DNA of 64,000 bases, taken from assembly GCF_027922305.1 (NCBI RefSeq), contig NZ_BSFK01000016.1:678565-742564 (forward strand), in the 5' to 3' direction. Numbering within the stretch: the stretch's first letter is position 1; every line of letters begins with the position of its first letter. The stretch is from Methylopila jiangsuensis. GTDB lineage: Bacteria; Pseudomonadota; Alphaproteobacteria; Rhizobiales; Methylopilaceae. The notes below the pieces were generated by a model, which saw only the letters and a list, made by a program, of their open reading frames with translations, did not search any database and was not told the origin of the DNA. This document shows, in pieces, positions 37,860-61,896 of this stretch. The translations under genes were made by a program, and so were the position numbers.

Positions 37860-38785
37860 CGCGCCTTGGCCTCGATCGCGACCGAATAGGCGTCCTTGGG
37901 CGTTGCGACCAGATCGATCAGGAAGCGGCCGCCGACGCTGAGCAGCAGCAGCGCCAGCAGCAGGCGCAGATGCTCGCCCTTCAGCTTCTGCCCGGCGCGG
38001 ACGCCGAACTGCGCCCCGATCGAGCCGCCGAGCATCAGGAGAGCGGCCAGAACCAGATCGACGGAGGCCGCCGCATAGGCGTGCAGCACGGTGGCGGCCA
38101 GCATGGTGATCAGGATCTGGAACAGCGAGGTGCCCACCACCACCGCGGTCGGCACCCGGAACACGTAGACCAGGATCGGCACTAGCAGGAAGCCGCCGCC
38201 GATGCCGAGCGTCGCGCCCACGAAGCCCACGAAGGCGCCGAGCCCGAGCAGCGGGATCACGCTCATGTGCAGCATGGAGCGCTGGAACCGGAGCTTGAAC
38301 GGCATGCGGTCGATGATCGACCGGCCGGCGGCGCGCGGTTTCGGCGCGGCCGCCTGAGGCGCGCCCCGGCGCAGCAGCGCGCGGGTGGATTCGGTCAGCA
38401 TCAGGCCGCCGATCACCCCGAGCAGGGCGACGTAGGCCACGGCGATGACCGCCTCGAGCTGGCCCGCGGCGCGCAGCAGGTTGAAGAACCACACGCCCGC
38501 GCCCGCGCCCGTGACGCCGCCCGCGAGCAGCACGAGGCCGAGCTTCACGTCGAGCGCCCGCCGTCGCCAGTAGGACAGCGCGCCGGTGAAGGCGGAGGCC
38601 GCGATCTGCGGCGCCTCGGAGGCCACCGCCACCGCCGTCGGCACGCCGATGAAGATCAGCAGCGGCGTCATGAGGAAGCCGCCGCCGATGCCGAACATGC
38701 CGGAGATGAAGCCGACCGCGAGGCTCATGCCGATCACGAGCAGCACGTCCACGGGCAGTTCGGCGATCGGAAGATAGATCTGCAT
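37856..38785 (-). CDS. TSUP family sulfite/anion permease (TauE/SafE)
   Basis: Integral membrane protein of 309 residues with about eight helices arranged as two repeats, each carrying the TSUP motif: FISGMFGIGGGFLMTPLLIF and FVGATLGIGGGFLLVPILVY. A cytoplasmic loop of about 40 residues (TRALLRRGAPQAAAP) lies between. Family members export or import sulfite, organosulfonates and similar anions. The coupled TIGR02186 gene is a typical companion. The substrate is unknown. Confidence 0.9.
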   Translation of the reverse strand: MQIYLPIAELPVDVLLVIGMSLAVGFISGMFGIGGGFLMTPLLIFIGVPTAVAVASEAPQIAASAFTGALSYWRRRALDVKLGLVLLAGGVTGAGAGVWFFNLLRAAGQLEAVIAVAYVALLGVIGGLMLTESTRALLRRGAPQAAAPKPRAAGRSIIDRMPFKLRFQRSMLHMSVIPLLGLGAFVGFVGATLGIGGGFLLVPILVYVFRVPTAVVVGTSLFQILITMLAATVLHAYAAASVDLVLAALLMLGGSIGAQFGVRAGQKLKGEHLRLLLALLLLSVGGRFLIDLVATPKDAYSVAIEAKAR

Positions 38786-38888
38786 GGGTGTCGCGGACGG
38801 GAGCGGGCTCGGGCGCCGGCGGGATCAAGCCCGCCCGCGCCGCAGGTGTCGTCAGCCTCCCGGCGCTGTCAACCGCGCAAGACCGGCC

Positions 38889-41800
38889 TCAGCGCAGCGA
38901 GACCGGCTCACGCGCGTCGGCGGGCGCGCCGGCCTGGTCCCAGCCGCCCGGAGGCGTCGGGGCTTCGTTGGCGGCGCTGTCCAGCATGCGCGGCTTGAAG
39001 TTGGCCACCGTCTGCTGGGCGCTGGCGAGGCTCTTGCCGAGGGCCTTGGCCACCTCCTCGCGCTTGCGGCCGGCGTCCTGGTCGCCCTGGGCCGCGGCGA
39101 GCGCGAACCACTTGTAGGCCTCCGCGAGATCGCGCTTGCCGGCGAGGCCGCGGGCCTGCAGCACGGCGAGGTTGTACTGGCTGTCCACGAGGCCGCGTTC
39201 GGCGGCCATGCGGAACCACACCGAGGCCGCCGCGAAGTCCGGCTTGCCGAGTCCGCCTTCGGCGTGCAGCACGCCAAGGTTGTGCATGGCGCGCACGTTG
39301 CCGGAGGCGGCCGCCTGCTCGTACCAGCGGCGCGCGACCACCAGATCGCGGGCGACGCCGCGGCCCTTCTCGTACAGGCTGCCGAGGCGGTGCTGGGCGG
39401 GCGCCAGCCCCTGCGCCGCGGCCTTCTCCAGCCAGTGGGCGGCGGCGGCGGGGTTGGGCGCCACGCCCCGGCCTTCGGCCAGGCGGTCGGCGATCTCAAG
39501 CTGCGCGGACGGGTCGCCCTGCACCGCGCGCAGGCGCAGCATGGAGCCGCCGATCGTGTCCGGCAGCGCCTCCGGGTCGCGGGACAGCGAGCCGGTGGTC
39601 AGGTCGTCGTCGGCCTTGGGCGCGGCGAACTTCTGCGGCTTGGCCCCGAGCGACTCGGCGAAGGCGTAGTCGGTGATGTCCGGCGCCGGTTTGCGCGGCG
39701 GCGTGAAGGACGACTGCGACTGCGGCCTGGGCGCGGCGGCGGGCGGTTCGGCGGGCGCCGCCGGAGCCGGGAGCGCGGGCTCCTCGGCGGCCGGGGCTTC
39801 CGGGGCGGCGTTCTCCGGCGCGCGCGCCGCCGGCGCGGCTTCGGGCGCCGTGGCGGCAGGCTCCTCGATCGCCGGCGCGGCGACCACGTTCTCGGAATGC
39901 GTGTCCGACAGCGAGCCCGCGAGCTTCACCACGCCGATGACGATCAGGGCTGCGGCGAGCGCGATGGCGAGCGGGCGCCGGCGCGCCTTCAGCGTGGCGA
40001 GGACCGCGCCGAAGCGCGACTCGGCCGGCTCGGTCAGGAGCTCGGGCGCGGGACGGATCTCGTCCGCCGCGGGCGGCCGCGAGGTGGCGCGGCGCGCGGC
40101 GGCGATGAGGGAGGCCGCCTTCGAGCTCGGCGCGGCGGGTTCGTCGTCGAGGATCGGCGCGGTGGTCGCCGCAGGCGCGGGCGCCCCGCGCTCGGCGGGC
40201 GCGTCCGGCTCGATCAGCGTGTCGAGCGACAGCTCGACCGGAATGTCGCGCACGGGCGCCACGGGCTTCGTCTGCGCCTGCGGCCGGCTGAAGGCGGCGG
40301 CGTCCTCCGGGGACAGCTCGGCCAGCGCCCGGCGGGCGGCGGCGCGGGCGGCCTCGGTGGCGTCGATCGCGGGGGCCGGCGCGGTCTCGGTCCGGGGCGC
40401 GGCGCGCAGGGCGTTGGCCTCAAAACCCTCCATGCGCTCCAGCAGCCGGTCCAGCGTCAGGCGCACGGCCTCCAGCGTGTCGGAGGTGCGGCGGTCGCTG
40501 CGGACGGCGATGTCGCGGATCCCGGCCAGGACCTCGGCGAGTTCGGTCGGGTCGACGCCGGGCGCGGCGGCCAGAGGCGCGGCGGCGTGGTCGCGCAGGG
40601 CCGAAGCGGCGGCGCGGGCGGCCTCAGCGCCGGCGTTGGCGCAGCTCGTCTCCACCCGCGCGGCGAGCGCGGCGAAACCGGCGTTCAGGTCGTCGATGCG
40701 GCCGCCGGTGCGGTCCAGCGTGTCCACGAGGCCGGCGATCCGGGTCTCGAGCCCCGCAAGCGGCGCGCCGCCCATGGCCGGCGCCGAGGCGCCCGCGACG
40801 AGGTGTTCGGCGATGCCGCGCACGGCGTCCTCGATGCGCTCGAAGGACTCGCTGCGAGCGCGGGCGCTGGCGGCCACCACGTCGACCCGCTCCGACAGGC
40901 CGTCGATCTTGTTCGCGACGGCGTCCAGCCGCGGCGCGACGGCGGCGCGGCTGGACAGCTCCTCGGTCAGCGCCTCGATGCGGCGGCCGAGGTCGTGGAC
41001 GCCGCCCGGCTGGGCGAGGCCGGCGCGCACCGCTTCCGCCACGCTCTCCACATCGCTTGCGCGCGAGGAGGCGGCGGCCAGCGCGTCGATGCGGTCGGCG
41101 AGCGCGTCCATCCTGGCCGGCAGGACGGCGTCGTCAGCCGCGTCGCGCCGGGCGAGGCTTTCCGTCAGGGCGTCGAGCCGGGCGCTGAAGCCGTCGAACG
41201 CCACCGCCGGCGAGCGGGCGTCCATCTCGGCCCGCAGAGTGGTCTCCAGCCGCTGCAGCTCGTCGCCGCGGCGGCTCGCGGCGGCCTCCTGCTCGTCCAG
41301 GCGGCGCACGAGGGTCTGGATGTCGCCGGCGAGCCGGTCCACCGCCGCGATGCGGGGGAAGTGGTCAAGCTCGCCGCGGATGTCGTCGATCTGGGAGGCG
41401 ATGGCGGCCATGGCCTCCACGTTCGGCGGCGCGGCGGCCTCCAGCCGCTCCGACAGCGCGGCGAGTTCGGCCGAGAAGCTCGCCAGCATCTGCGGGCTCG
41501 CGGCGTCGCCGCGCATGCGCTCCACCTCAAGCACGAGGGTCTCTATGGCCTTCAGGGACACGGGGTCGAGCCGCGCCGGACGCTCGGCGTCGCAGCGCTC
41601 GGCCACCGCGGCGATCTCGCGCAGCAGGCCGTCCACGTCGGCGCGGGTCGGCAGGTCCTGCACGGCGCCGGCGAGGTCGTCGATGCGGCGGCGCAGCTCG
41701 GCGATCACGGCCGGGTCGGTCGCCGGCGCGGCGGCGGCCATGGGCGCGCGCGACGGCCGGGGAGCCTCGTCGTCGAGCGCCTTCTGCCGGGCGGCGATCT

Positions 41801-42191
41801 CGGCCAGCGCGGCGCGCAGCGTCATGGTCGCGCGCGAGGAGGCTGCGGCCGGCTCCTCCTCCGCGGCGGGAACGGGGGCGCGCTCGGCCACGGGGGCGAT
41901 CGGCTCGGCCACGTGTTCTTCCGGCGACGCGGAAGGCGCGGGCGGCGGCGTGTCCGTCCAGCGGGCGAAGCCCTCCAGCGCGTTGGTCAGCCGGTCCTCG
42001 GTCTGGAGGTTGCGCCGGGACAGCATGGAGACGAGCTGCTCCAGGCTGCGGCGCGGCGGGCTCTGGGGCGCGGGCGAGGCGGTGTCGGCGAGGCGTTCCG
42101 CGAGGCGGTCGATCGGCCGCGCCTCGGCGTCCCGCCCTTCGCCCTGCGGGGCGATCGCCCGTGCGGCCCGTGCCTGGTCGCTGAAGCTCAT
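38889..42191 (-). CDS. PodJ-like polar organising protein with SEL1 repeats
   Basis: Protein of 1100 residues. The N-terminal 700 are cytoplasmic: an Ala-rich, coiled-coil-like region with recurring DxLADRIDALAA and RxIDDLNAG segments. One membrane helix (PLAIALAAALIVIGVVKLAGS, about 735-755) leads to a Pro/Ala linker. The C-terminal part (about 880-1050) holds several SEL1 (TPR-like) repeats, for example HRLGSLYEKGRGVARDLVVA and MHNLGVLHAEGG. The same order of parts is seen in PodJ of Caulobacter and rhizobia, which places polarity and division factors at the cell pole. The gene is the last host gene before the prophage. Confidence 0.82.
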   Translation of the reverse strand: MSFSDQARAARAIAPQGEGRDAEARPIDRLAERLADTASPAPQSPPRRSLEQLVSMLSRRNLQTEDRLTNALEGFARWTDTPPPAPSASPEEHVAEPIAPVAERAPVPAAEEEPAAASSRATMTLRAALAEIAARQKALDDEAPRPSRAPMAAAAPATDPAVIAELRRRIDDLAGAVQDLPTRADVDGLLREIAAVAERCDAERPARLDPVSLKAIETLVLEVERMRGDAASPQMLASFSAELAALSERLEAAAPPNVEAMAAIASQIDDIRGELDHFPRIAAVDRLAGDIQTLVRRLDEQEAAASRRGDELQRLETTLRAEMDARSPAVAFDGFSARLDALTESLARRDAADDAVLPARMDALADRIDALAAASSRASDVESVAEAVRAGLAQPGGVHDLGRRIEALTEELSSRAAVAPRLDAVANKIDGLSERVDVVAASARARSESFERIEDAVRGIAEHLVAGASAPAMGGAPLAGLETRIAGLVDTLDRTGGRIDDLNAGFAALAARVETSCANAGAEAARAAASALRDHAAAPLAAAPGVDPTELAEVLAGIRDIAVRSDRRTSDTLEAVRLTLDRLLERMEGFEANALRAAPRTETAPAPAIDATEAARAAARRALAELSPEDAAAFSRPQAQTKPVAPVRDIPVELSLDTLIEPDAPAERGAPAPAATTAPILDDEPAAPSSKAASLIAAARRATSRPPAADEIRPAPELLTEPAESRFGAVLATLKARRRPLAIALAAALIVIGVVKLAGSLSDTHSENVVAAPAIEEPAATAPEAAPAARAPENAAPEAPAAEEPALPAPAAPAEPPAAAPRPQSQSSFTPPRKPAPDITDYAFAESLGAKPQKFAAPKADDDLTTGSLSRDPEALPDTIGGSMLRLRAVQGDPSAQLEIADRLAEGRGVAPNPAAAAHWLEKAAAQGLAPAQHRLGSLYEKGRGVARDLVVARRWYEQAAASGNVRAMHNLGVLHAEGGLGKPDFAAASVWFRMAAERGLVDSQYNLAVLQARGLAGKRDLAEAYKWFALAAAQGDQDAGRKREEVAKALGKSLASAQQTVANFKPRMLDSAANEAPTPPGGWDQAGAPADAREPVSLR

Positions 42192-42255
42192 TGCGCTCGA
42201 TCTCCGTCGGCGGCCCCTTCGAAGCGCCGCCTTTAGGCACTCTTAACGGACAGGG

Positions 42256-42365: not shown

Positions 42366-43559
42366 TCAGGTGTCCTTGGAGGCCCGAAACTTCGTGCGGC
42401 TGGCCTGCGCGCGCCTCGTCGCTTCGAGCACGTCCCGATCGTAGACGCGGGCGGTCGTCTGCGTGCCCTTGTGCCCAGCCATCCGACTTGCATCCTCGAT
42501 CGCCGCGCCGCCTCGCCTCGCTTCCGTCACAGCGCCGGCGCGCAGGTCGCGGTTCCAGGCGCCAAACGGGAGGCCGGCCGCGTGAGCAACGCGCTTCCAA
42601 AGCGTTCGAAAGTTCCGCTCCCGCCACGGGAGGCCAGATCGCTCGCAGACGATGAGCGGGCCGACACGCTGCTCGGAGTGGATGCGCTCGATCTCCTCCA
42701 GCACCATCGGACAAAGCTTCAGGTCGCAATGCACCCGTGCCCCGGTGGATTTCGCCGTTTTGCTGGCCGTGTAGTTCAGGATCAGATCGTCCGAAATATG
42801 GGACCAAGACAACCCGACCCACTTCTCGCCGTAGCCGAGGATGCTTGACGGCTGGGGGTCTCCGATCTCCACCCAGCGTCCGATGACGTCCCATAGCCGC
42901 AGCGACGTCTCAAACTGGATCGCGTATGCGAGGGCGGCTGACGGGCGGAGCACCGCGTGCGCTGCTGCTCGAATGGCGATCACGTCGGAGGCGGTCGGCG
43001 CGACGTCGCGCGGCCGCGGGCCGGGAAGGGACGTCGCGGAGAAAACCGCGCTGAACTGGAGGCAGCCCGGCAGACCAGCCATGACGCCGAAGCGCACCGC
43101 CGCCTTGAGAACCGCGAGGGCCATCTTGGCCGCGCCCAGCCGTTCGGCTGCGCCGGGCTCCGCGGGCTCCCGCCAAACCTTGTGCCAACGAGCGAGGTCT
43201 AGGCCATTTTGCTGGTCTACGCGGAGAGCTCCGATCATGGCGCGGAGCTTCCGCAGATACACCAAGTAGGGCCGGCGAGAGGCGGGGTTCAGAGCTTGGA
43301 ATGGACTCTGCTCGTGGCGCTCATACAAGTCGAAAAGGGACGAGAAGGTGCCGTCGAACACCACTGACCGGGTGTCTCGGTAGGTGCGCCACATTTTCAG
43401 TTCAGCGTTCAGCCGCTCGCACCGGGCGGCGAGATCATCGCCAGCGAGGCCGGTGAGGTTCACGGACTTGACCGGATATCCCTCTTTGACCGCATCCGCG
43501 GGCGCGATCCAATACGGGACGCGCTGACCGCCTGCCCGAGACCGCCACTTGAGGTTCAT
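42366..43559 (-). CDS. Prophage tyrosine integrase
   Basis: Site-specific recombinase of 397 residues. The catalytic set is partly visible: Arg in TSLRLWDVIGR, Lys in YTASKTAKST, RDLRAGAVTEA (the H-x-x-R box with Arg in place of His), and MAGHKGTQTTARVYDRD with the His and the nucleophilic Tyr. The N-terminal ~200 residues hold the arm- and core-binding regions. ATG at 43559 was preferred over the upstream ATG at 43583 because it overlaps the stop of the preceding gene as ATGA. It is the last gene of the leftward arm, beside the attachment region. Confidence 0.92.
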   Translation of the reverse strand: MNLKWRSRAGGQRVPYWIAPADAVKEGYPVKSVNLTGLAGDDLAARCERLNAELKMWRTYRDTRSVVFDGTFSSLFDLYERHEQSPFQALNPASRRPYLVYLRKLRAMIGALRVDQQNGLDLARWHKVWREPAEPGAAERLGAAKMALAVLKAAVRFGVMAGLPGCLQFSAVFSATSLPGPRPRDVAPTASDVIAIRAAAHAVLRPSAALAYAIQFETSLRLWDVIGRWVEIGDPQPSSILGYGEKWVGLSWSHISDDLILNYTASKTAKSTGARVHCDLKLCPMVLEEIERIHSEQRVGPLIVCERSGLPWRERNFRTLWKRVAHAAGLPFGAWNRDLRAGAVTEARRGGAAIEDASRMAGHKGTQTTARVYDRDVLEATRRAQASRTKFRASKDT

Positions 43560-43849
43560 GCCCGCTTTTTGGTCGCCCGCCATGCGCCTGCATCCTCAAT
43601 CGCGCCCGCCGGGCGAACTGTCTTGGTCGGGGGCTCCAGCCCAGCGTCAACGTCAAAGAAGCGCTTCACGGCCGGCCAGTATCGCCCACCCATGACGGGG
43701 TGGATAGTCGGGAGCCCGCGCGCCTCAAGAAGCGGGGCGATAGCCGACCACTCACGGGCGCGGGCTCGACCAAGCACCTTCGCCCCGATCTCAGCGTCGC
43801 TGAGATAAAGCGGCGTGTCGCCTGCATCCCTCTCCGCCACCTTACCCAT
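43556..43849 (-). CDS. Small putative DNA-binding/excisionase-like protein
   Basis: Protein of 97 residues directly upstream of, and overlapping, the integrase gene. The segment LYLSDAEIGAKVLGRARARE followed by LPTIHPVMGGRYWPAVKRFF looks like the winged-helix excisionase style often found before integrases: a helix-turn-helix then a short wing. It could direct excision or regulate int. The assignment comes from position and shape, not a recognised family. Confidence 0.6.
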   Translation of the reverse strand: MGKVAERDAGDTPLYLSDAEIGAKVLGRARAREWSAIAPLLEARGLPTIHPVMGGRYWPAVKRFFDVDAGLEPPTKTVRPAGAIEDAGAWRATKKRA

Positions 43850-45132: not shown

Positions 45133-45337
45133 GTGCGGGCCTCCGAAACGGCAGAATGTTCGACCGCCCCGGCATCGGAGCCTCAGCCTCGATAAGCGCG
45201 TCGATCGGGTCGTCGGTGACGTAGACCGGGTGGTCCTCGCGAGCGCGGCGGTAGGCCTGGAACGCCGGGTCGTTGGCGATGTGGCTCGGAACGGGCTCGC
45301 CGCCGAGAAGGAGGAGGTGGGCTTCTTCGAAGGTCAT
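45122..45337 (-). CDS. Hypothetical phage protein
   Basis: Small protein of 71 residues (MTFEEAHLLLLGGEPVPSHI, then FQAYRRAREDHPVYVTDDP). The C-terminal PFRRPAHGR is basic. No family was recognised. ATG at 45337 overlaps the stop of the methyltransferase gene. Confidence 0.55.
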   Translation of the reverse strand: MTFEEAHLLLLGGEPVPSHIANDPAFQAYRRAREDHPVYVTDDPIDALIEAEAPMPGRSNILPFRRPAHGR

Positions 45338-46524
45338 GCCGCCATCCCGTGCACGGCCGCCATCGCCGCCTCGACGCGCAGGATCGCGCGGCCGATCATC
45401 TCGGGGATCTGGGGGACGACCGCGTCCCCGAACGCTTCGGCGATGAGCCTGGCGGCAGACGTCCCGCGAGGACCGCCGACCGCAACGCGCGCGCCAGCCA
45501 CCCAGGCGGATAGCCCATCATCCAGCCGTAGGTGGGCGGCAAGGCCGCCGTTCCAGTCAGCCCATGGCTCGTGAGCATCACCGCCAGCGCCCGCGCGCTT
45601 GCCCACTTGGTCGATGTGGCATCCCGCAGTACGACCGGGATGTTTGCTTTCGTACGACCGTCGCCCGTGTGCAGGCCCGATGACCCGTGGCGGTCTGATT
45701 TCAGCGGCGTTGGCAGGGTCTCCAGCGTCGGCGCATGGCGAAGCAGGTTCGCCACGTCGATCTGGGCCTTGTGGCCGTTGGCCCTCTTTCCCGACAGCAT
45801 CGCCTCGCGGGTCAGCGTTCTGCCGCCGTTCGGTTTGATCGGCGTCGGAAGCATGCCCGCATGCCGGCTGGGATAGCCCCGTAGTTGCGAAAGGATATCG
45901 CCCCTTCCACCCCGATCCCCGTCCGTCTTTCGCGGGGTCGCGAGGATCATCCTCAACGGGTAGGTCGATCCCGCTCCGCCCTGCCCGTCCGACGCCATCG
46001 GCGTCGGCAACCTGTTCGGGATCGCAGGCGAGGACCCAGCATCGTGCGCGTTCGTGGTTGGCACCGACGTCTGAAGCACGAACCACGAGCGGCCAGCAGG
46101 CGTAGCCGAGGTCTTCCAGCGCGCCGAGCACCCGGTCAGCGCCTCGACTTCTGAGATTAGCGCTGTTCTCAAGAGCGACCCAACGAGGTCGGCCTTCTCC
46201 GACGAGCCGGATGGCCTCGAAGAACAGCCCGGAGCGCTCGCCGTCGACGCCTTTTCCTTTTGTGTTGGCGCTCGATATGTCTTGGCAGGGCGGGGAGCCG
46301 ACGAGGACGGATGGGAAATATCCAAGGTCGGCCACAACGCGAGCTGCGGTGAGAGTGCGGACGTCATCGTAAATTCTCACCCCCGGATTGTTTTCCGCGT
46401 AGAGCGTCCGGCGCCAGTCCACAGCCTCGCAGGCCGCGACATTGCGGAAGCCAGCCCTGTGCATGCCGAGCGACCAGCCGCCGGCGGCCGCCGAAAACAG
46501 GTCGATGACGTCGAGTGCGCTCAC
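45334..46524 (-). CDS. Phage DNA (cytosine-5) methyltransferase
   Basis: C5-cytosine methyltransferase of 396 residues that would methylate phage or host DNA, probably to avoid restriction. Motifs in one frame: DLFSAAAGGWSLGMHRAGF (I), GSPPCQDISSAN (IV, catalytic Cys), VALENSANLRSR (VI), HERARCWVLA (VIII) and AFGDAVVPQIPEMIG (X). Between VIII and X lie ~170 residues of polar, low-order sequence (target-recognition region). There, a second frame is open and looks more protein-like (see the separate entry), so the middle of this product is uncertain. The stop and start overlap both neighbouring genes. Confidence 0.82.
   Translation of the reverse strand: MSALDVIDLFSAAAGGWSLGMHRAGFRNVAACEAVDWRRTLYAENNPGVRIYDDVRTLTAARVVADLGYFPSVLVGSPPCQDISSANTKGKGVDGERSGLFFEAIRLVGEGRPRWVALENSANLRSRGADRVLGALEDLGYACWPLVVRASDVGANHERARCWVLACDPEQVADADGVGRAGRSGIDLPVEDDPRDPAKDGRGSGWKGRYPFATTGLSQPACGHASDADQTERRQNADPRGDAVGKEGQRPQGPDRRGEPASPCADAGDPANAAEIRPPRVIGPAHGRRSYESKHPGRTAGCHIDQVGKRAGAGGDAHEPWADWNGGLAAHLRLDDGLSAWVAGARVAVGGPRGTSAARLIAEAFGDAVVPQIPEMIGRAILRVEAAMAAVHGMAA
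45396..46367 (-). other. Overlapping alternative frame inside the methyltransferase gene
   Basis: A 323-codon frame, +1 to the methyltransferase frame. From about 46136 down to 45430 it reads like the 'LPTP' type protein found with phage methyltransferases: CSARWKTSATPAGRSW, RLPTPMASDGQGG, MLPTPIKPNGGR, TLPTPLKSDRHG and PPTYGWMMGYPPGWLARAL. By a hand count over about 165 codons, third-position GC is near 80% in this frame against near 60% in the methyltransferase frame. Outside this stretch the methyltransferase frame has the better codon pattern. It may be an overprinted gene or the result of two compensating frameshifts. Confidence 0.45.
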
Positions 46525-46703
46525 CGCCGCACCTCCCGCTCGCGCTGCGACTGGTCGCGAAGCTCGTGGCCGGGCTGTGGAGCGGAGGCCGGGCGTACCG
46601 GGCCTTGCGCGAGCGTGTAGCCGTCAGCGAGGCGCTGGGCGTGGGCGATGAGCTCGGAGCGGCGCGGCTCGGGGATGGGGGTGAGGTGCGGGCTGTCGGT
46701 CAT
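46521..46703 (-). CDS. Hypothetical phage protein
   Basis: Short protein of 60 residues (MTDSPHLTPIPEPRRSELIA, then GYTLAQGPVRPASAPQPG). It is polar and Pro-rich with no recognised family. It overlaps the methyltransferase start and the next gene by 4 bases each. Confidence 0.5.
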   Translation of the reverse strand: MTDSPHLTPIPEPRRSELIAHAQRLADGYTLAQGPVRPASAPQPGHELRDQSQREREVRR

Positions 46704-47858: not shown

Positions 47859-47951
47859 TCACGCTCCTACGGCGATGGCGGCGGCCATAAGGCCGGCGAT
47901 GAAAAGGGTGATGGCGATGGCGTCGATGGACGCTCGGGCGATGCGGGTCAT
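47859..47951 (-). CDS. 30-residue membrane mini-protein
   Basis: ATG at 47951, stop at 47859. The product is MTRIARASIDAIAITLFIAG then LMAAAIAVGA: a basic N-terminus and one transmembrane helix. It overlaps the hexapeptide-repeat gene by 4 bases and ends one base before the next start, so translation is coupled. The role is unknown. Confidence 0.5.
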   Translation of the reverse strand: MTRIARASIDAIAITLFIAGLMAAAIAVGA

Positions 47952-48613
47952 CGGGCGGGCTCCGCGATCTTCGCCGCGTGAGCAGCCTTGGCGCGCGCAA
48001 GGCCGGGGTGGCTCTCCACCATCGCGATCAGATGGCGGTAATCGTCGCCATGATCCGTCGCGCCATGCTCGTCCTCGACGCGGGACTTGAGCGTGGCAGT
48101 GTCGATGCCGTGTTGGCACCCGACCCACCACCGAAGCCCATGCTCGGCTGACCAGACGACGGTCGCCCAGGCGTTGCGCGAGCCCTGCGGGCCGGCGACG
48201 AACATCCAGTCTTCGGCCTCGATGATGGCGTGGTCGCCGATGCTGGCGCGGTCGCCGATGATGGCGTGGTGGCCGATGCTGGCGCGGTCGCCGATGCTGG
48301 CGCGGTAGCCGATGATGGCGCGGTAGCCGATGATGGCGTGGTGGCCGATGCTGGCGCGGTCGCCGATGATGGCGTGGTGGCCGATGCTGGCGCGGTCGCC
48401 GATGCTGGCGCGGTAGCCGATGCTGGCGCGGTCGCCGATGCTGGCGCCGGGCCAGACCTCAGCGGAAGCCGGAATGGTGACGCCATCAGCCACGGTCGCG
48501 CTGGTGGCGACGATGCCACCCTCGGACCCGTCCGGGTTGACCCAATGACGGGCCTCCGCGCTGTGGTATCCGCCGAATAGGTGAGTGAAGGTCTTGCTGC
48601 TGTCCTCGGCCAT
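47948..48613 (-). CDS. Hexapeptide-repeat (left-handed beta-helix) phage protein
   Basis: Protein of 221 residues. After ~55 N-terminal residues (including GGIVATSATVADGVTIPAS, already hexapeptide-like) come twelve strict six-residue repeats (IGDRAS, IGYRAS, IGHHAI, IGYRAI, IGDHAI). The Ile-Gly start of each matches the left-handed beta-helix hexapeptide. The C-terminal ~85 residues (EDWMFVAGPQGSRNAWATVV, WVGCQHGIDTATLKSRVEDE) form a separate small domain. The repeat could fold as a triangular prism, as in acyltransferases, but no catalytic sequence is recognisable. It could be a structural or anti-host protein. Confidence 0.75.
   Translation of the reverse strand: MAEDSSKTFTHLFGGYHSAEARHWVNPDGSEGGIVATSATVADGVTIPASAEVWPGASIGDRASIGYRASIGDRASIGHHAIIGDRASIGHHAIIGYRAIIGYRASIGDRASIGHHAIIGDRASIGDHAIIEAEDWMFVAGPQGSRNAWATVVWSAEHGLRWWVGCQHGIDTATLKSRVEDEHGATDHGDDYRHLIAMVESHPGLARAKAAHAAKIAEPAR
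48224..48439 (-). repeat. Tandem 18-base repeats coding for hexapeptides
   Basis: Twelve 18-base units in tandem (216 bases), each coding for one hexapeptide turn of the beta-helix protein. Units differ by a few bases and alternate in a partly ordered way, suggesting growth by duplication of one-, two- or three-unit blocks. Confidence 0.85.
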
Positions 48614-48677: not shown

Positions 48678-49916
48678 TCAGGTGCGAATTTCAGGCTTGG
48701 TGAACTCGCTGGCAGAGATGCCGAGCATCCAGCTCTGCGCCTGGATCGCGGTCTCGCACATCGGATCGACGCAGATCGCAAAGTCACGGCCAGTTCCGCA
48801 GCGCACTCTGAGAAAGCGAGCCGTCACCCTGTCCTCACCGCCCTCGCTGCCGGGAAGGTCAACTTCCACCAGCGTTCCAATTTCAGGATCGCCGTCCGCA
48901 TCGAGGGTTCGCGCGTCTAGATCCGCCAGGATCTTCGCCCAGCCGAGGATTTCGCAGGCCGCGCGACGCTGCTCGAGATTTTGGCAGGACAGAGCCGCCG
49001 CAGGCGTCAGGCTTCCCGGATTTTCGATCCATTCGGAGGGGATGCGGACTCCACGCCACGCGTAGACCGAAAATCCGTCTCGGTAGAGGACGGCTGGACC
49101 AGACTCGTTGTGCAGCCGCCCATCTTCGTCGCGGCGAAGATCGCAAGGCCGATCAGTCATGATGGCCGCACCACGAAAAAACCAGCACCACCCCACGGTT
49201 TCGGCCACCGTGACGAGCGGCCTCAGGCGCTCAGCGGCCTTCACGCCTGCGGCGGCGAAATACTCATAGAACGACAGCCACCCCGCGTCGTGCTGGCCGT
49301 ACATCGCAGCCCAGACCTGATCCCCGACCTGAGCCCTGACCTGATCCCCGACCTGAGCCCAGACCTGATCCCCGACCTGAGCCCAGACCTGAGCCCTGAC
49401 CTGAGCCCCGACCTGAGCCCCGACCTGAGCCCAGACCTGAGCCCCGACCTGAGCCCAGACCTGAGCCCAGACCTGAGCCCAGACCTGAGCCCTGACCTGA
49501 GCCCCGACCTGAGCCCAGACCTGATCCCCGACCTGAGCCCAGACCTGAGCCCTGACCTGAGCCCCGACCTGATCCCCGACCTGAGCCCTGACCTGAGCCC
49601 CGACCTGATCCCAGACCTGATCCCCGACCTGAGCCCAGACCTGAGCCCCGACCTGATCCCAGACCTGATCCCCGACCTGAGCCCCAAACTTCGAGTTCTT
49701 CAGCATCGCCGCAGCGATGGCGCCTTCACGCGGCGAAGAAAGCCGGATGAAAATTTTCGGCGCTTCCAAGCCGGCGACCGCATAGGCCGCGCAGATGGCC
49801 TGCTGCGCGGTATCGAAATCCGCGGGAGCGCAGGAAAGGCCGGCGTTGATAAACCGATCGCGGATGGCTGGAATGAGCGCCTGCTGCTCAGGCGAGAGCT
49901 TTTCGAGCTTCGCCAT
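48678..49916 (-). CDS. DUF6745-type phage protein with tetrapeptide repeat array
   Basis: Protein of 412 residues. The N-terminal ~75 residues (KLSPEQQALIPAIRDRFINA) are followed by 31 tandem four-residue units of form x-[A/D]-Q-V (GAQV, GDQV, WDQV, WAQV, RAQV). Then comes a conserved region: FFRGAAIMTDRPCDLRRDED, LHNESGPAVLYRDGFSVYAW, GVRIPSEWI and ACEILGWAKIL, which resembles the DUF6745 family. The C-terminal ~100 residues are less typical. The regular Val spacing suggests a beta or coiled structure repeating every four residues. The function is unknown. It lies next to another repeat-built protein. Confidence 0.72.
   Translation of the reverse strand: MAKLEKLSPEQQALIPAIRDRFINAGLSCAPADFDTAQQAICAAYAVAGLEAPKIFIRLSSPREGAIAAAMLKNSKFGAQVGDQVWDQVGAQVWAQVGDQVWDQVGAQVRAQVGDQVGAQVRAQVWAQVGDQVWAQVGAQVRAQVWAQVWAQVWAQVGAQVWAQVGAQVGAQVRAQVWAQVGDQVWAQVGDQVRAQVGDQVWAAMYGQHDAGWLSFYEYFAAAGVKAAERLRPLVTVAETVGWCWFFRGAAIMTDRPCDLRRDEDGRLHNESGPAVLYRDGFSVYAWRGVRIPSEWIENPGSLTPAAALSCQNLEQRRAACEILGWAKILADLDARTLDADGDPEIGTLVEVDLPGSEGGEDRVTARFLRVRCGTGRDFAICVDPMCETAIQAQSWMLGISASEFTKPEIRT
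49314..49685 (-). repeat. 31 tandem 12-base repeats inside the DUF6745-type gene
   Basis: 372 bases made of 12-base units (plus-strand form GACCTGAGCCCC/GACCTGATCCCA and variants), each coding for x-[A/D]-Q-V. The unit keeps frame and shows few third-position changes, a sign of recent expansion or of selection on the protein. Confidence 0.85.
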
Positions 49917-55076: not shown

Positions 55077-55192
55077 GCGCGAAGGCTACCGCCTGCATCA
55101 TCGCGATCTGGCTGGCGTTCTGGGCGCCGGTGGTCGCCGTCGGGCTCGTCAAGCATTCGTCCTGCCAGCACCAATCGGAGCGCCGGCCATGA
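55073..55192 (+). CDS. 39-residue membrane mini-protein
   Basis: ATG at 55073 overlaps the previous stop; the stop at 55192 overlaps the helicase start. One transmembrane helix (CIIAIWLAFWAPVVAVGLV) is followed by a short hydrophilic tail (KHSSCQHQSERRP). No family was recognised. Confidence 0.5.
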   Translation: MSAKATACIIAIWLAFWAPVVAVGLVKHSSCQHQSERRP

Positions 55193-56592
55193 CCGCGCTC
55201 CACGGCTATCACGACCTCATAGGCCGCAAGCGCATCGAGGCCCTTCCATGCGGGCTTTCGGAAGTGCCTGCGCTTCATCCCGACATGTTCGATCATCAGC
55301 GGCACGCGGTTGATTTCGCGCTTCGCGCCGGTCGCGCCGCTCTGTTTCTTGACACGGGCCTCGGTAAATCGCTCTGCGCGATCGAGTGGGGCCGCGTCGT
55401 CAGCGAGCACACTGGCAAATCGGTTCTCATGCTCGCGCCGCTCGCAGTCACGCATCAGCATGCGCGCGAGGGCGAGCGGTTCGGCGTTGATGTGAAGGCC
55501 GTCCGGTCCGGCGAGGAGATTGGCGGGCGCGGCATCTATGTCACGAACTATGACCGCCTGGACAAGTTCGATGTCTCGCGATTTGGCGGCGTGATCCTCG
55601 ATGAATCGTCGGTCATCAAAAATTTCAACGGGAAGACCACGCGTCGCCTGATTGAAGCTTTCGCGCAGACGCCGTTCCGGCTTTGCTGCACCGCCACACC
55701 CGCGCCGAACGATCACACGGAACTGGGCGCGCACGCTGAGTTTCTTGGCGTCATGCGGCGCGAAGAGATGCTGCCGATCTGGTTCATCAACGACACGGCC
55801 GATACTGGCACGTGGCGGATCAAGAACCACGCTCGGGCCAATTTCTGGTCCTGGGTGGCGTCGTGGGCGCGATGCGTCTCGCGGCCCAGCGACATCGGTT
55901 TTGCGGATGACGGATACGCTCTGCCCGATCTGGTCGTATCGCACCATGAAGTCGCGGCCGATCGCATGGTCGATCCGGGCTCGGAGCGCGATGGGCAGTC
56001 GCGGCTGTTTCGTATCCCAGATACCTCCGCCACGTCGATCCATAAAGAGAAGCGGCTGACGATCGAAGGTCGCGCGCGTCTCGTAGCGGGCATCCTCGCC
56101 CGCGAGCCTGACGAGCCTTGGATCGTGTGGGTCGATACGGACTACGAGGCCGACGCGGTTATGGCGGTGCTGCCGGACGCGATCGAGGTTCGCGGGTCCA
56201 TGCCGCCCGAAGAAAAGGAGTCCCGACTTGTCCGGTTCTCCGAGGGTCGCGCCCGCATCATAGTCACCAAATCGTCGATCGCAGGATTTGGCCTCAACTG
56301 GCAGCACTGCGCGCGCCAGTGCTTCGCCGGGGTCAGCTTCTCCTACGAGGCCTTTTATCAGGCCGTTCGTCGATCCTGGCGGTTTGGGCAGATGCGGCCT
56401 GTGCACGTGCACGTCGTCTGCGCCGACACCGAACGCGCCATCTGGCCCGTCGTTGAGCGCAAGGCCGGCGATCATGGCGCCATGAAGCGCGAGATGGTCG
56501 CGGCGATGCGCCGGGCCATCAAGGCTGAAACGGCGCGCAAGCTCTATCAACCCGAACATGAGGCCAGGCTCCCGGCTTGGATCGCCGCATGA
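55189..56592 (+). CDS. SNF2-type DEAD/DEAH helicase
   Basis: SF2 helicase/translocase of 467 residues. Motifs: Q-like HQRHAVDF, LDTGLGKSL (Walker A), NYDRL, VILDESSVIKN (DExx), CTATPAPND (III), VTKSSIAGFGLNWQHC (V) and FYQAVRRSWRFGQ (VI). This compact form is typical of phage early regions and is often paired with a DNA methyltransferase, as here. It could unwind or remodel DNA during phage replication. The stop overlaps the methyltransferase start. Confidence 0.88.
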   Translation: MTALHGYHDLIGRKRIEALPCGLSEVPALHPDMFDHQRHAVDFALRAGRAALFLDTGLGKSLCAIEWGRVVSEHTGKSVLMLAPLAVTHQHAREGERFGVDVKAVRSGEEIGGRGIYVTNYDRLDKFDVSRFGGVILDESSVIKNFNGKTTRRLIEAFAQTPFRLCCTATPAPNDHTELGAHAEFLGVMRREEMLPIWFINDTADTGTWRIKNHARANFWSWVASWARCVSRPSDIGFADDGYALPDLVVSHHEVAADRMVDPGSERDGQSRLFRIPDTSATSIHKEKRLTIEGRARLVAGILAREPDEPWIVWVDTDYEADAVMAVLPDAIEVRGSMPPEEKESRLVRFSEGRARIIVTKSSIAGFGLNWQHCARQCFAGVSFSYEAFYQAVRRSWRFGQMRPVHVHVVCADTERAIWPVVERKAGDHGAMKREMVAAMRRAIKAETARKLYQPEHEARLPAWIAA

Positions 56593-60995: not shown

Positions 60996-61333
60996 GCACC
61001 ACCATCGCCCTGCCGTTCCCGCCGCCGCTGAACAACCTCTTCGCCAACGTCCATGGCCGCGGCCGCGTGCGCTCACAGCGCTATCGAGAGTGGGCCAACG
61101 CTGCCGGCTGGCAGCTTCGCGCCGCGCGGCCGGCGTCCGTCACCGGGCCTGTCGCCGTCACGATCCTGCTGGGCCGCCCCGACCGCCGCAAGCGCGACCT
61201 CGACGGCCTGTCCAAGGCCCCGATCGATCTGCTGGTGGAGCACCGCGTCATCGAGGACGACAGCCTCGTGCAGCGCCTCACCCTCGCATGGGCGCCCGTC
61301 ACCGGCTGCCAGATCACCGTGGAGGCAGCGTGA
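60992..61333 (+). CDS. RusA-type Holliday junction resolvase
   Basis: Protein of 113 residues: LPFPPPLNNLFANVHGRGRV, RYREWANAAGWQLRAA, VAVTILLGRPDRRKRDLDGL (metal-binding Asp residues), SKAPIDLLVEHRVIEDDSLV and QRLTLAWA. This is the RusA family, which cuts branched DNA in phage recombination. ATG at 60992 overlaps the HNH stop. Confidence 0.9.
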   Translation: MSTTIALPFPPPLNNLFANVHGRGRVRSQRYREWANAAGWQLRAARPASVTGPVAVTILLGRPDRRKRDLDGLSKAPIDLLVEHRVIEDDSLVQRLTLAWAPVTGCQITVEAA

Positions 61334-61896
61334 TGGCCCTCATTGGAGTCGCCACCTACGACAGCCCGGACGAGATGCGCGCGGCCTATTCTCGCGCCCG
61401 CGCGAGGCTATGGTCGCCGCCCGCGGCGGCGCCAGCGGCTGAACCTGCGCCGTCCGCCCCGCAGCACGCCGCCTCCCAGGTGCTGGATGGCTCGTCCATC
61501 GTATGGCGTGGGGGGCGCGAATGGCTTCTGATCGCCTCGCGCGAGGATGGAGAGCCGGTTGAGACCGCCAGTGCGATGTCCAAGGTCGAGATCGCCGCAA
61601 TCGAGATGCACGCGCCGTTCTGGCTTCGATCACCAGACGGACGGCTGCCGCGCGACGCCAAAGACATCGTCCACGCCATCTGCCGCAGGCACAATCTGAC
61701 GCGAGCAGAGCTTATGTCCGAGCGCCGCTTCAAGCACATCACGATGGCGCGGCAGGAGGCCTATTGGTGGCTGTCCAAGCTCACGGGCTGGTCGCTGCCG
61801 CGCATCGGGCGCCTGATGGGCGGGTTCGACCACACCACGATCCTGCACGGCGTCCGCAAGCATCAGGCCCGCATCGACGCAGGCGAGGTGTCGTGA
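61333..61896 (+). CDS. DnaA domain IV-like phage protein
   Basis: Protein of 187 residues whose C-terminal ~75 match the DNA-binding domain IV of DnaA: DIVHAICRRHNLTRAELMSE, then FKHITMARQEAYWWLSKLTG, SLPRIGRLMGGFDHTTILHG and VRKHQ. The GFDHTTILH block is the DnaA signature. No AAA+ ATPase is present. The N-terminal half is Ala/Pro-rich (PPAAAPAAEPAPSAPQHAAS) and then has a short unknown segment. It is probably an origin-binding protein that recruits the DnaB-type helicase encoded two genes on. Confidence 0.85.
   Translation: MALIGVATYDSPDEMRAAYSRARARLWSPPAAAPAAEPAPSAPQHAASQVLDGSSIVWRGGREWLLIASREDGEPVETASAMSKVEIAAIEMHAPFWLRSPDGRLPRDAKDIVHAICRRHNLTRAELMSERRFKHITMARQEAYWWLSKLTGWSLPRIGRLMGGFDHTTILHGVRKHQARIDAGEVS

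Follow-up and report, generated by a model that had tools for sequence, protein, structure and literature searches.

A stretch of 64,000 nucleotides of the Methylopila jiangsuensis genome (contig NZ_BSFK01000016.1, positions 678,565 to 742,564; hereafter the window) was found to contain a methyltransferase locus in which a second open reading frame (ORF) is nested in the +1 frame of the first. Very probably, the two frames, each with a start of its own, code for the two subunits of a DNA (cytosine-5) methyltransferase (C5-MTase) made of two polypeptides, which would join into a single enzyme for marking the DNA of the phage or prophage. In this model, the outer polypeptide (alpha), read from a GTG, would provide the S-adenosylmethionine-binding and catalytic motifs I-VIII plus motif X; the inner polypeptide (beta), started at an ATG inside alpha and read in the +1 frame to 45396, would provide the variable target-recognition region of LPTP units and motif IX. 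Ribosomes would start independently at the two sites of one message, and alpha and beta would assemble into a two-lobed C5-MTase, with the part of alpha between motifs VIII and X acting as a linker or spacer whose sequence is nearly irrelevant except that it has no stop codon. Formation of the heterodimer, the specificity function of beta, and a role in phage-DNA modification are predicted here from the sequences of the locus and its relatives. Enzymes of this general kind are known, although seldom noticed, and the arrangement is a widespread variant of them. Its features, including Shine-Dalgarno (SD)-like sites, are the following:

46532..46537, minus strand: SD-like GGGAGG of alpha, position counted from the sequence
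45334..46524, minus strand: alpha, the C5-MTase ORF, 396 amino acids, GTG start at 46524
46477..46503, minus strand: alpha motif I, DLFSAAAGG, with little or no variation among 32 aligned sequences
46376..46384, minus strand: SD-like GGGGGTGAG of beta
45396..46367, minus strand: beta, the nested +1-frame ORF, 323 amino acids, ATG start at 46367
46365..46367, minus strand: beta start codon ATG, within the alpha codons for YDDV
46282..46293, minus strand: alpha motif IV, PPCQ, with the catalytic Cys, invariant in the 32 sequences
46074..46193, minus strand: alpha motifs VI-VIII and beta residues 59-98, dual-coded
45534..46013, minus strand: putative recognition region in beta (residues 119-278, with the LPTP units), opposite the alpha linker
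45477..45533, minus strand: YGWMMGYPPGW block, beta residues 279-297, probable motif IX, dual-coded
45409..45435, minus strand: alpha motif X, AFGDAVVPQ, nearly invariant in the 32 sequences

Both frames were as an earlier sequence-only reading of the window had described them, except that the interval 45396-46367, which it gave for the methyltransferase gene, belongs to the +1 ORF. Alpha matched PF00145 (1.2e-29; residues 5-171 on profile positions 2-165, i.e., motifs I-VIII) and phrog_363 (1.5e-47; residues 5-388, with the motif X end covered). Its motifs I-VIII occur in order, with PCQ and EN invariant in the 32 aligned sequences; DLFSAAAGG and PPCQ are what we take to be motifs I and IV. 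The PF00145 match stops at profile position 165, the IX-like block sits in the +1 frame, and between motifs VIII and X alpha was found neither to align among relatives nor to be constrained. Compared with the monomeric C5-MTases M.HhaI and M.HaeIII (PF00145), alpha is alike over motifs I-VIII, while their recognition region and motif IX are unmatched and they have no comparable +1 ORF. Beta matched phrog_1008, a phage family separate from that of alpha (2.1e-15, residues 26-293), and profile searches of Pfam, NCBIfam, and PADLOC returned no match for it. The GC content at third codon positions, which the sequence-only reading had counted by hand, was correct (0.79 in the +1 frame versus 0.58 in the methyltransferase frame over 46019-45540). 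It was higher in the methyltransferase frame at both outer ends, and was already higher in the +1 frame at 46191-46020 (0.75 versus 0.63). Its further remark, that the C-terminal block of 'LPTP' proteins corresponds to motif X as translated in the +1 frame, was also supported.

Selection was estimated for each frame region by region as omega, a ratio of the dN/dS (non-synonymous to synonymous) type. In the window family, 87 pairs at 2-22% divergence were used, isolated differences were classed by their effect in each frame, and the expectation was taken within the class non-synonymous in the other frame; as pairs share sequences, the intervals come from resampling sequences. Purifying selection in the middle of the gene acts on beta only, with alpha merely kept open: omega was 1.36 [0.90-1.96] in alpha versus 0.17 [0.11-0.25] in beta at beta residues 119-250, and 1.94 versus 0.18 at residues 251-278. 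Both frames were constrained at residues 59-98 over motifs VI-VIII (0.08 in alpha, 0.21 in beta) and at residues 279-297, the YGWMMGYPPGW block (0.22 in alpha, 0.12 in beta). Constraint was also detected directly after the beta ATG (0.08 at residues 5-30). Alpha dominated at residues 31-58 (0.05 versus 0.50 [0.22-0.98] in beta), and at residues 298-323 omega was 0.03 in alpha versus 0.31 [0.15-0.75] in beta, with beta at 2.15 when alpha-silent sites were considered. The canonical family (539 pairs at 2-25% divergence, from 83 of 119 sequences) displayed a similar division, with 1.44 [1.22-1.71] in alpha versus 0.25 [0.19-0.31] in beta in the middle, and 0.39 in alpha and 0.13 in beta over the IX block. 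In 34 aligned loci picked for having both ORFs whole, (i) alpha third positions were the most variable in the parts coding for alpha only; (ii) all three codon positions were conserved across motifs VI-VIII; and (iii) most variation in the middle fell at alpha first positions, which are the wobble positions of beta. Because the regional omegas differ by frame, we conclude that the two frames divide the gene between them, with truly dual-coded seams. The per-frame dN/dS comparison that the sequence-only reading had proposed finds selection in both frames, region by region. The overlapping second gene, old and widespread, that it had offered as one option is supported; the part that did not stand is simple overprinting, as the +1 frame is the constrained one mid-gene and the methyltransferase frame is only kept open there.

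Relatives of the window pair were collected by scanning viral contigs with each frame, which gave 34 and 35 loci on largely shared contigs. Nearly all had both ORFs with beta in +1; no beta match was detected in two (L061 and L066). Across the 57 rows with a +1 ORF among L001-L072, the alpha frame had zero stops except on the contig of L033/L064 (one contig, seen twice), while the third frame, serving as control, had 9-23. Ten rows from other loci (L075 to L107) had some alpha-frame stops, L107 being a single-chain form. The pair is present in Rhizobium phages RHph_N2 and X2_25, where the annotation covers alpha only, and in Komagataeibacter phage phiKX1 just the C-terminal part of beta is annotated.

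The wider family was searched with an alignment of seven canonical beta proteins, and at least 477 relatives were confirmed in genome contigs and at least 541 in viral contigs. The best 80 of each (160 loci) were tested for open frames; openness of beta was part of how these loci were found, and openness of alpha was not. The sequence-only reading had held that dual coding should be rejected if homologues kept one frame only, and both frames were open in 153 of the 160 loci, the alpha frame being stop-free over about 200 tested codons for which about 6 stops per locus were expected. The PCQ motif was present in the tested stretch in 151 of these 153. The seven exceptions were two split forms (L111 and L143), four alphas with one stop (L140, L175, L188, and L195), and one shifted locus (L200). 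The 76 alpha-open loci from genome contigs were spread over 14 named phyla, including one of archaea; two loci were without a phylum, and many came from metagenome-assembled genomes. GC content of the loci ranged from 38% to 73%. When codons were permuted in 152 of the 153 open loci (one was omitted for a stop or odd letter at its edge), 952 alpha-frame stops were predicted with beta as the only frame that counts and 472 beta-frame stops with alpha as the only one, compared with 0 observed in either case. Ordinary C5-MTases were examined as controls using the 30 best PF00145 loci from 120 genomes, two of which (L293 and L295) were unreadable. The +1 ORF or block was absent from 28 of 28 readable controls, in which the +1 frame held 5-29 stops and its longest open stretch was 28-194 codons (194 in L294). 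Matches to phrog_1008 were detected in 27 of 398 Pseudomonadota genomes, and a methyltransferase model matched 27 of the 30 loci L073-L102, with none in L081, L098, and L099. Beta genes standing apart from any methyltransferase were also considered, and none of the 160 loci was clearly of this type. A comparison limited to the alpha DNA of Salmonella phage S9-5 gave similar stretches in 4 of 5,426 complete Escherichia coli genomes; the four stretches are annotated as DNA cytosine methyltransferase, and two rows also list an ead/Ea22-like protein.

The place of beta within the enzyme is suggested by relatives with other arrangements. In actinophage relatives, the modules of alpha and beta are found either within one frame or on a pair of genes that overlap in part, and in the single-chain relatives the beta module lies between motifs VIII and X of the enzyme. 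In the split forms of a Spirochaetia metagenome-assembled genome (L111) and Paraburkholderia adhaesiva (L143), alpha ends soon after motif VIII and a +1 ORF carries the LPTP units, motif IX, and motif X. Judging from block order in the single-chain relatives and a weak alignment, YGWMMGYPPGW is probably motif IX of C5-MTases, a point overlooked in the sequence-only reading; the +1 protein is therefore most likely the second half of the methyltransferase itself. Since single-chain relatives exist, the beta middle may once have been in frame with the rest, such that the newer reading there would be the alpha spacer and not beta. Among 70 loci surveyed for form, 13 were single-chain and 26 were nested, while 3 lacked a readable methyltransferase ORF. 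The other 28 were of neither form; 11 of these were split and the rest were unmatched by the classification pattern. A tree of 287 rows gave 13 changes among nested, split, and single forms, which is a hint only, as many branches are weak and the form labels are pattern-based, with at least one (L334) wrong. Two further layouts were also observed: Gordonia phage Baddon (L105, 2004-3074) is a mosaic, with LPTP-like units in +1 and a WMMGLPRGW block plus motif X in the methyltransferase frame; and on viral contig L068 a single frame runs from the methyltransferase N-terminus through the LPTP region and IX-like block to motif X, with pieces in other frames, which may be natural or an assembly error.

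The start of beta was surveyed in 33 of the 34 whole-ORF loci (L028 was unreadable and omitted). A +1 ATG was found in the alpha 'YDD' codons in 33/33 loci (29/29 distinct), at one of three neighbouring places. From the T-ending share of Tyr and Asp codons elsewhere in alpha, an ATG would be expected at 63% of loci; the binomial probability of the observed conservation is 2e-7 assuming independent loci, which these are not fully. An SD-like tetramer was located 4-15 bases 5′ of the beta ATG in 27 of the 33 loci compared with a 13.5% background, and a wider pattern was matched in 31. Beta of the window is predicted from these comparisons to be translated from its own ATG at 46367. In two Acinetobacter loci (L110 and L119) and Salmonella phage S9-5 (L369), the alpha and beta starts are apparently four bases apart (GTGAATGAG or ATGAATGAG) and beta reads MSWLFSQAL directly after a stop; nearly the entire alpha gene would be overlapped in these cases.

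Several results weigh against a two-subunit enzyme at this locus. Regarding translation and selection, the SD-like GGGGGTGAG of the window's own beta satisfies the wider pattern only; the first 58 and last 26 beta residues mostly track the constraint of alpha; canonical beta upstream of the end of motif VIII is weakly constrained (omega 0.59-0.63); and four window-family metagenome contigs (L031, L033/L064, L034/L057, and L068) have a shift that breaks the layout. Regarding beta as part of a C5-MTase, the alignment of motif IX to M.HhaI scores -4 bits, which is meaningless alone; the canonical beta profile did not match any of 28 ordinary C5-MTases; and a search of beta against PDB sequences gave a best E of 1. 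The predicted structure of the window's beta is of low quality (mean predicted local distance difference test score, pLDDT, 52.9), with only residues 56-100 well predicted, a part that coincides with the dual-coded stretch at residues 59-98. A fold search with this model gave no significant fold, an absence that means little for so poor a model. The LPTP stretch was of low confidence in a single-chain model as well, and its folding as a recognition domain is only putative.

The missing match between beta and ordinary C5-MTases and the missing known fold would both be accounted for if beta were real but lay outside the enzyme, e.g., as a regulator or an unrelated phage function nested in a methyltransferase gene; however, the beta module stands between motifs VIII and X in the single-chain relatives and no constrained recognition region is found in the alpha frame, and we consider this explanation improbable. 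Programmed frameshifting, which the sequence-only reading had listed as an option, would have ribosomes shift from alpha into +1 before motif VI, such that beta would be a fusion with the alpha N-terminus lacking motif X. The existence of single-chain relatives is in keeping with such a shift, as is beta constraint that is strongest from about residue 59 on; yet the beta-frame ATG is conserved although its place shifts between three adjacent positions, residues 5-30 after it are constrained, and the SD-like site precedes it in most loci. Frameshifting is unneeded because a conserved ATG, mostly with an SD-like site in front, is available to beta, and we give it little credence. The remaining explanation, that only one continuous frame is real and the other is a shadow ORF, a sequencing error, or the product of two recent compensating frameshifts, may draw on the tendency of high GC to favour long spurious ORFs and on contigs with a single indel (L031, L033, L034, and L068), but has a negligible probability: both frames are open in 153 of the 160 loci, at a locus GC of 38-73%, a shadow ORF of a GC-rich gene is ruled out by the codon permutation, omegas, and ordinary C5-MTase controls, and sequence errors and the compensating frameshifts that the sequence-only reading had considered as a replacement of the recognition domain are rejected because dozens of divergent relatives keep the two-frame layout.

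The two-subunit enzyme was next compared with known systems. Lee et al. are said to have reported in 1995 that an alternative frame inside the large gene encodes the small polypeptide of M.EcoHK31I. As described in another report (PMC3404938), M.AquI and M.EcoHK31I each consist of two polypeptides, with the larger M.EcoHK31I subunit carrying motifs I-VIII, X, and a predicted recognition domain and the smaller one motif IX only. By motif layout, M.EcoHK31I (YGGCCR) is the closest known enzyme: alpha of the window likewise has motifs I-VIII and X, and motif IX on a second polypeptide may have its counterpart in beta, an ORF that is conserved, under selection, and provided with a weakly aligned IX-like block. 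The window pair, likened to M.EcoHK31I by this layout and not by sequence, probably works like it and belongs to the same kind. The recognition domain of M.EcoHK31I is predicted in the larger subunit (PMC3404938), whereas in the families studied here selection places the recognition region in the nested frame (omega 1.4-1.9 in alpha, 0.17-0.25 in beta). The recognition region in beta, the long nesting, and the spread over 14 named phyla set the pair apart from M.EcoHK31I. M.AquI (CYCGRG) is similar in its division between motifs VIII and X, and an AquI-like division with IX and X on the second polypeptide was found in the split relatives L111, L143, and Catdawg gp6/gp5; in the window, in contrast, alpha retains motif X and encloses beta. 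Alpha is phrog_363-like and beta phrog_1008-like; both families are described as DNA methyltransferase, and the descriptions are silent on the sharing of one DNA stretch in two frames. No published description of the nested family or its spread was found in the openly licensed literature, as judged mostly from listings.

Long same-strand nested genes are thought to be rare in bacteria and are commonly excluded by annotation pipelines. In the present case, selection maintains both frames of a nested gene in many phyla, among them hosts of 38-45% GC, where two frames would hardly stay open by chance; the arrangement is often annotated as a single gene. On balance, we favour extending the reading to the class: phage and bacterial C5-MTases in at least 14 phyla may hide a specificity subunit in the +1 frame of the catalytic-subunit gene, with constraint on the catalytic frame at the ends, on the specificity frame mid-gene, and on the two together at the seams; frameshifts would have repeatedly converted the single-chain, split, and nested forms into one another, and the module could diversify its recognition while tied to its catalytic partner. 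If so, (i) many 'DNA cytosine methyltransferase' annotations represent half of an enzyme; and (ii) recognition specificity is unreadable from the annotated protein, which would look inactive when expressed alone. The single-chain, split, and nested relatives also provide a natural series for the origin and upkeep of overlapping genes.

The region of the window around the locus is taken for a prophage because an integrase gene is nearby and phage-type replication and recombination genes (DnaB, Rad52-like, and helicase) follow. No clear restriction gene was detected in the subset of neighbouring ORFs scanned. The neighbouring features are the following:

42366..43583, minus strand: integrase gene of the prophage (phrog_1 5.5e-20; PF00589 below cut-off)
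47948..48613, minus strand: protein of many near-identical short repeats (GDRASIGHHAIIG), hexapeptide-repeat-helix-like, which matches phage families of unknown function
48678..49916, minus strand: DUF6745 protein in the prophage region
55189..56592: helicase ORF with a weak ResIII match, below cut-off
61090..61896, plus strand: protein with a DnaA C-terminal helix-turn-helix

The last of these lies just 5′ of the DnaB helicase gene and may be a phage-borne replication initiator. Beside the prophage, a stretch of about 74-78% GC has very long ORFs on both strands (38784-42236 plus and 38889-42191 minus); the plus-strand ORF had no Pfam match.
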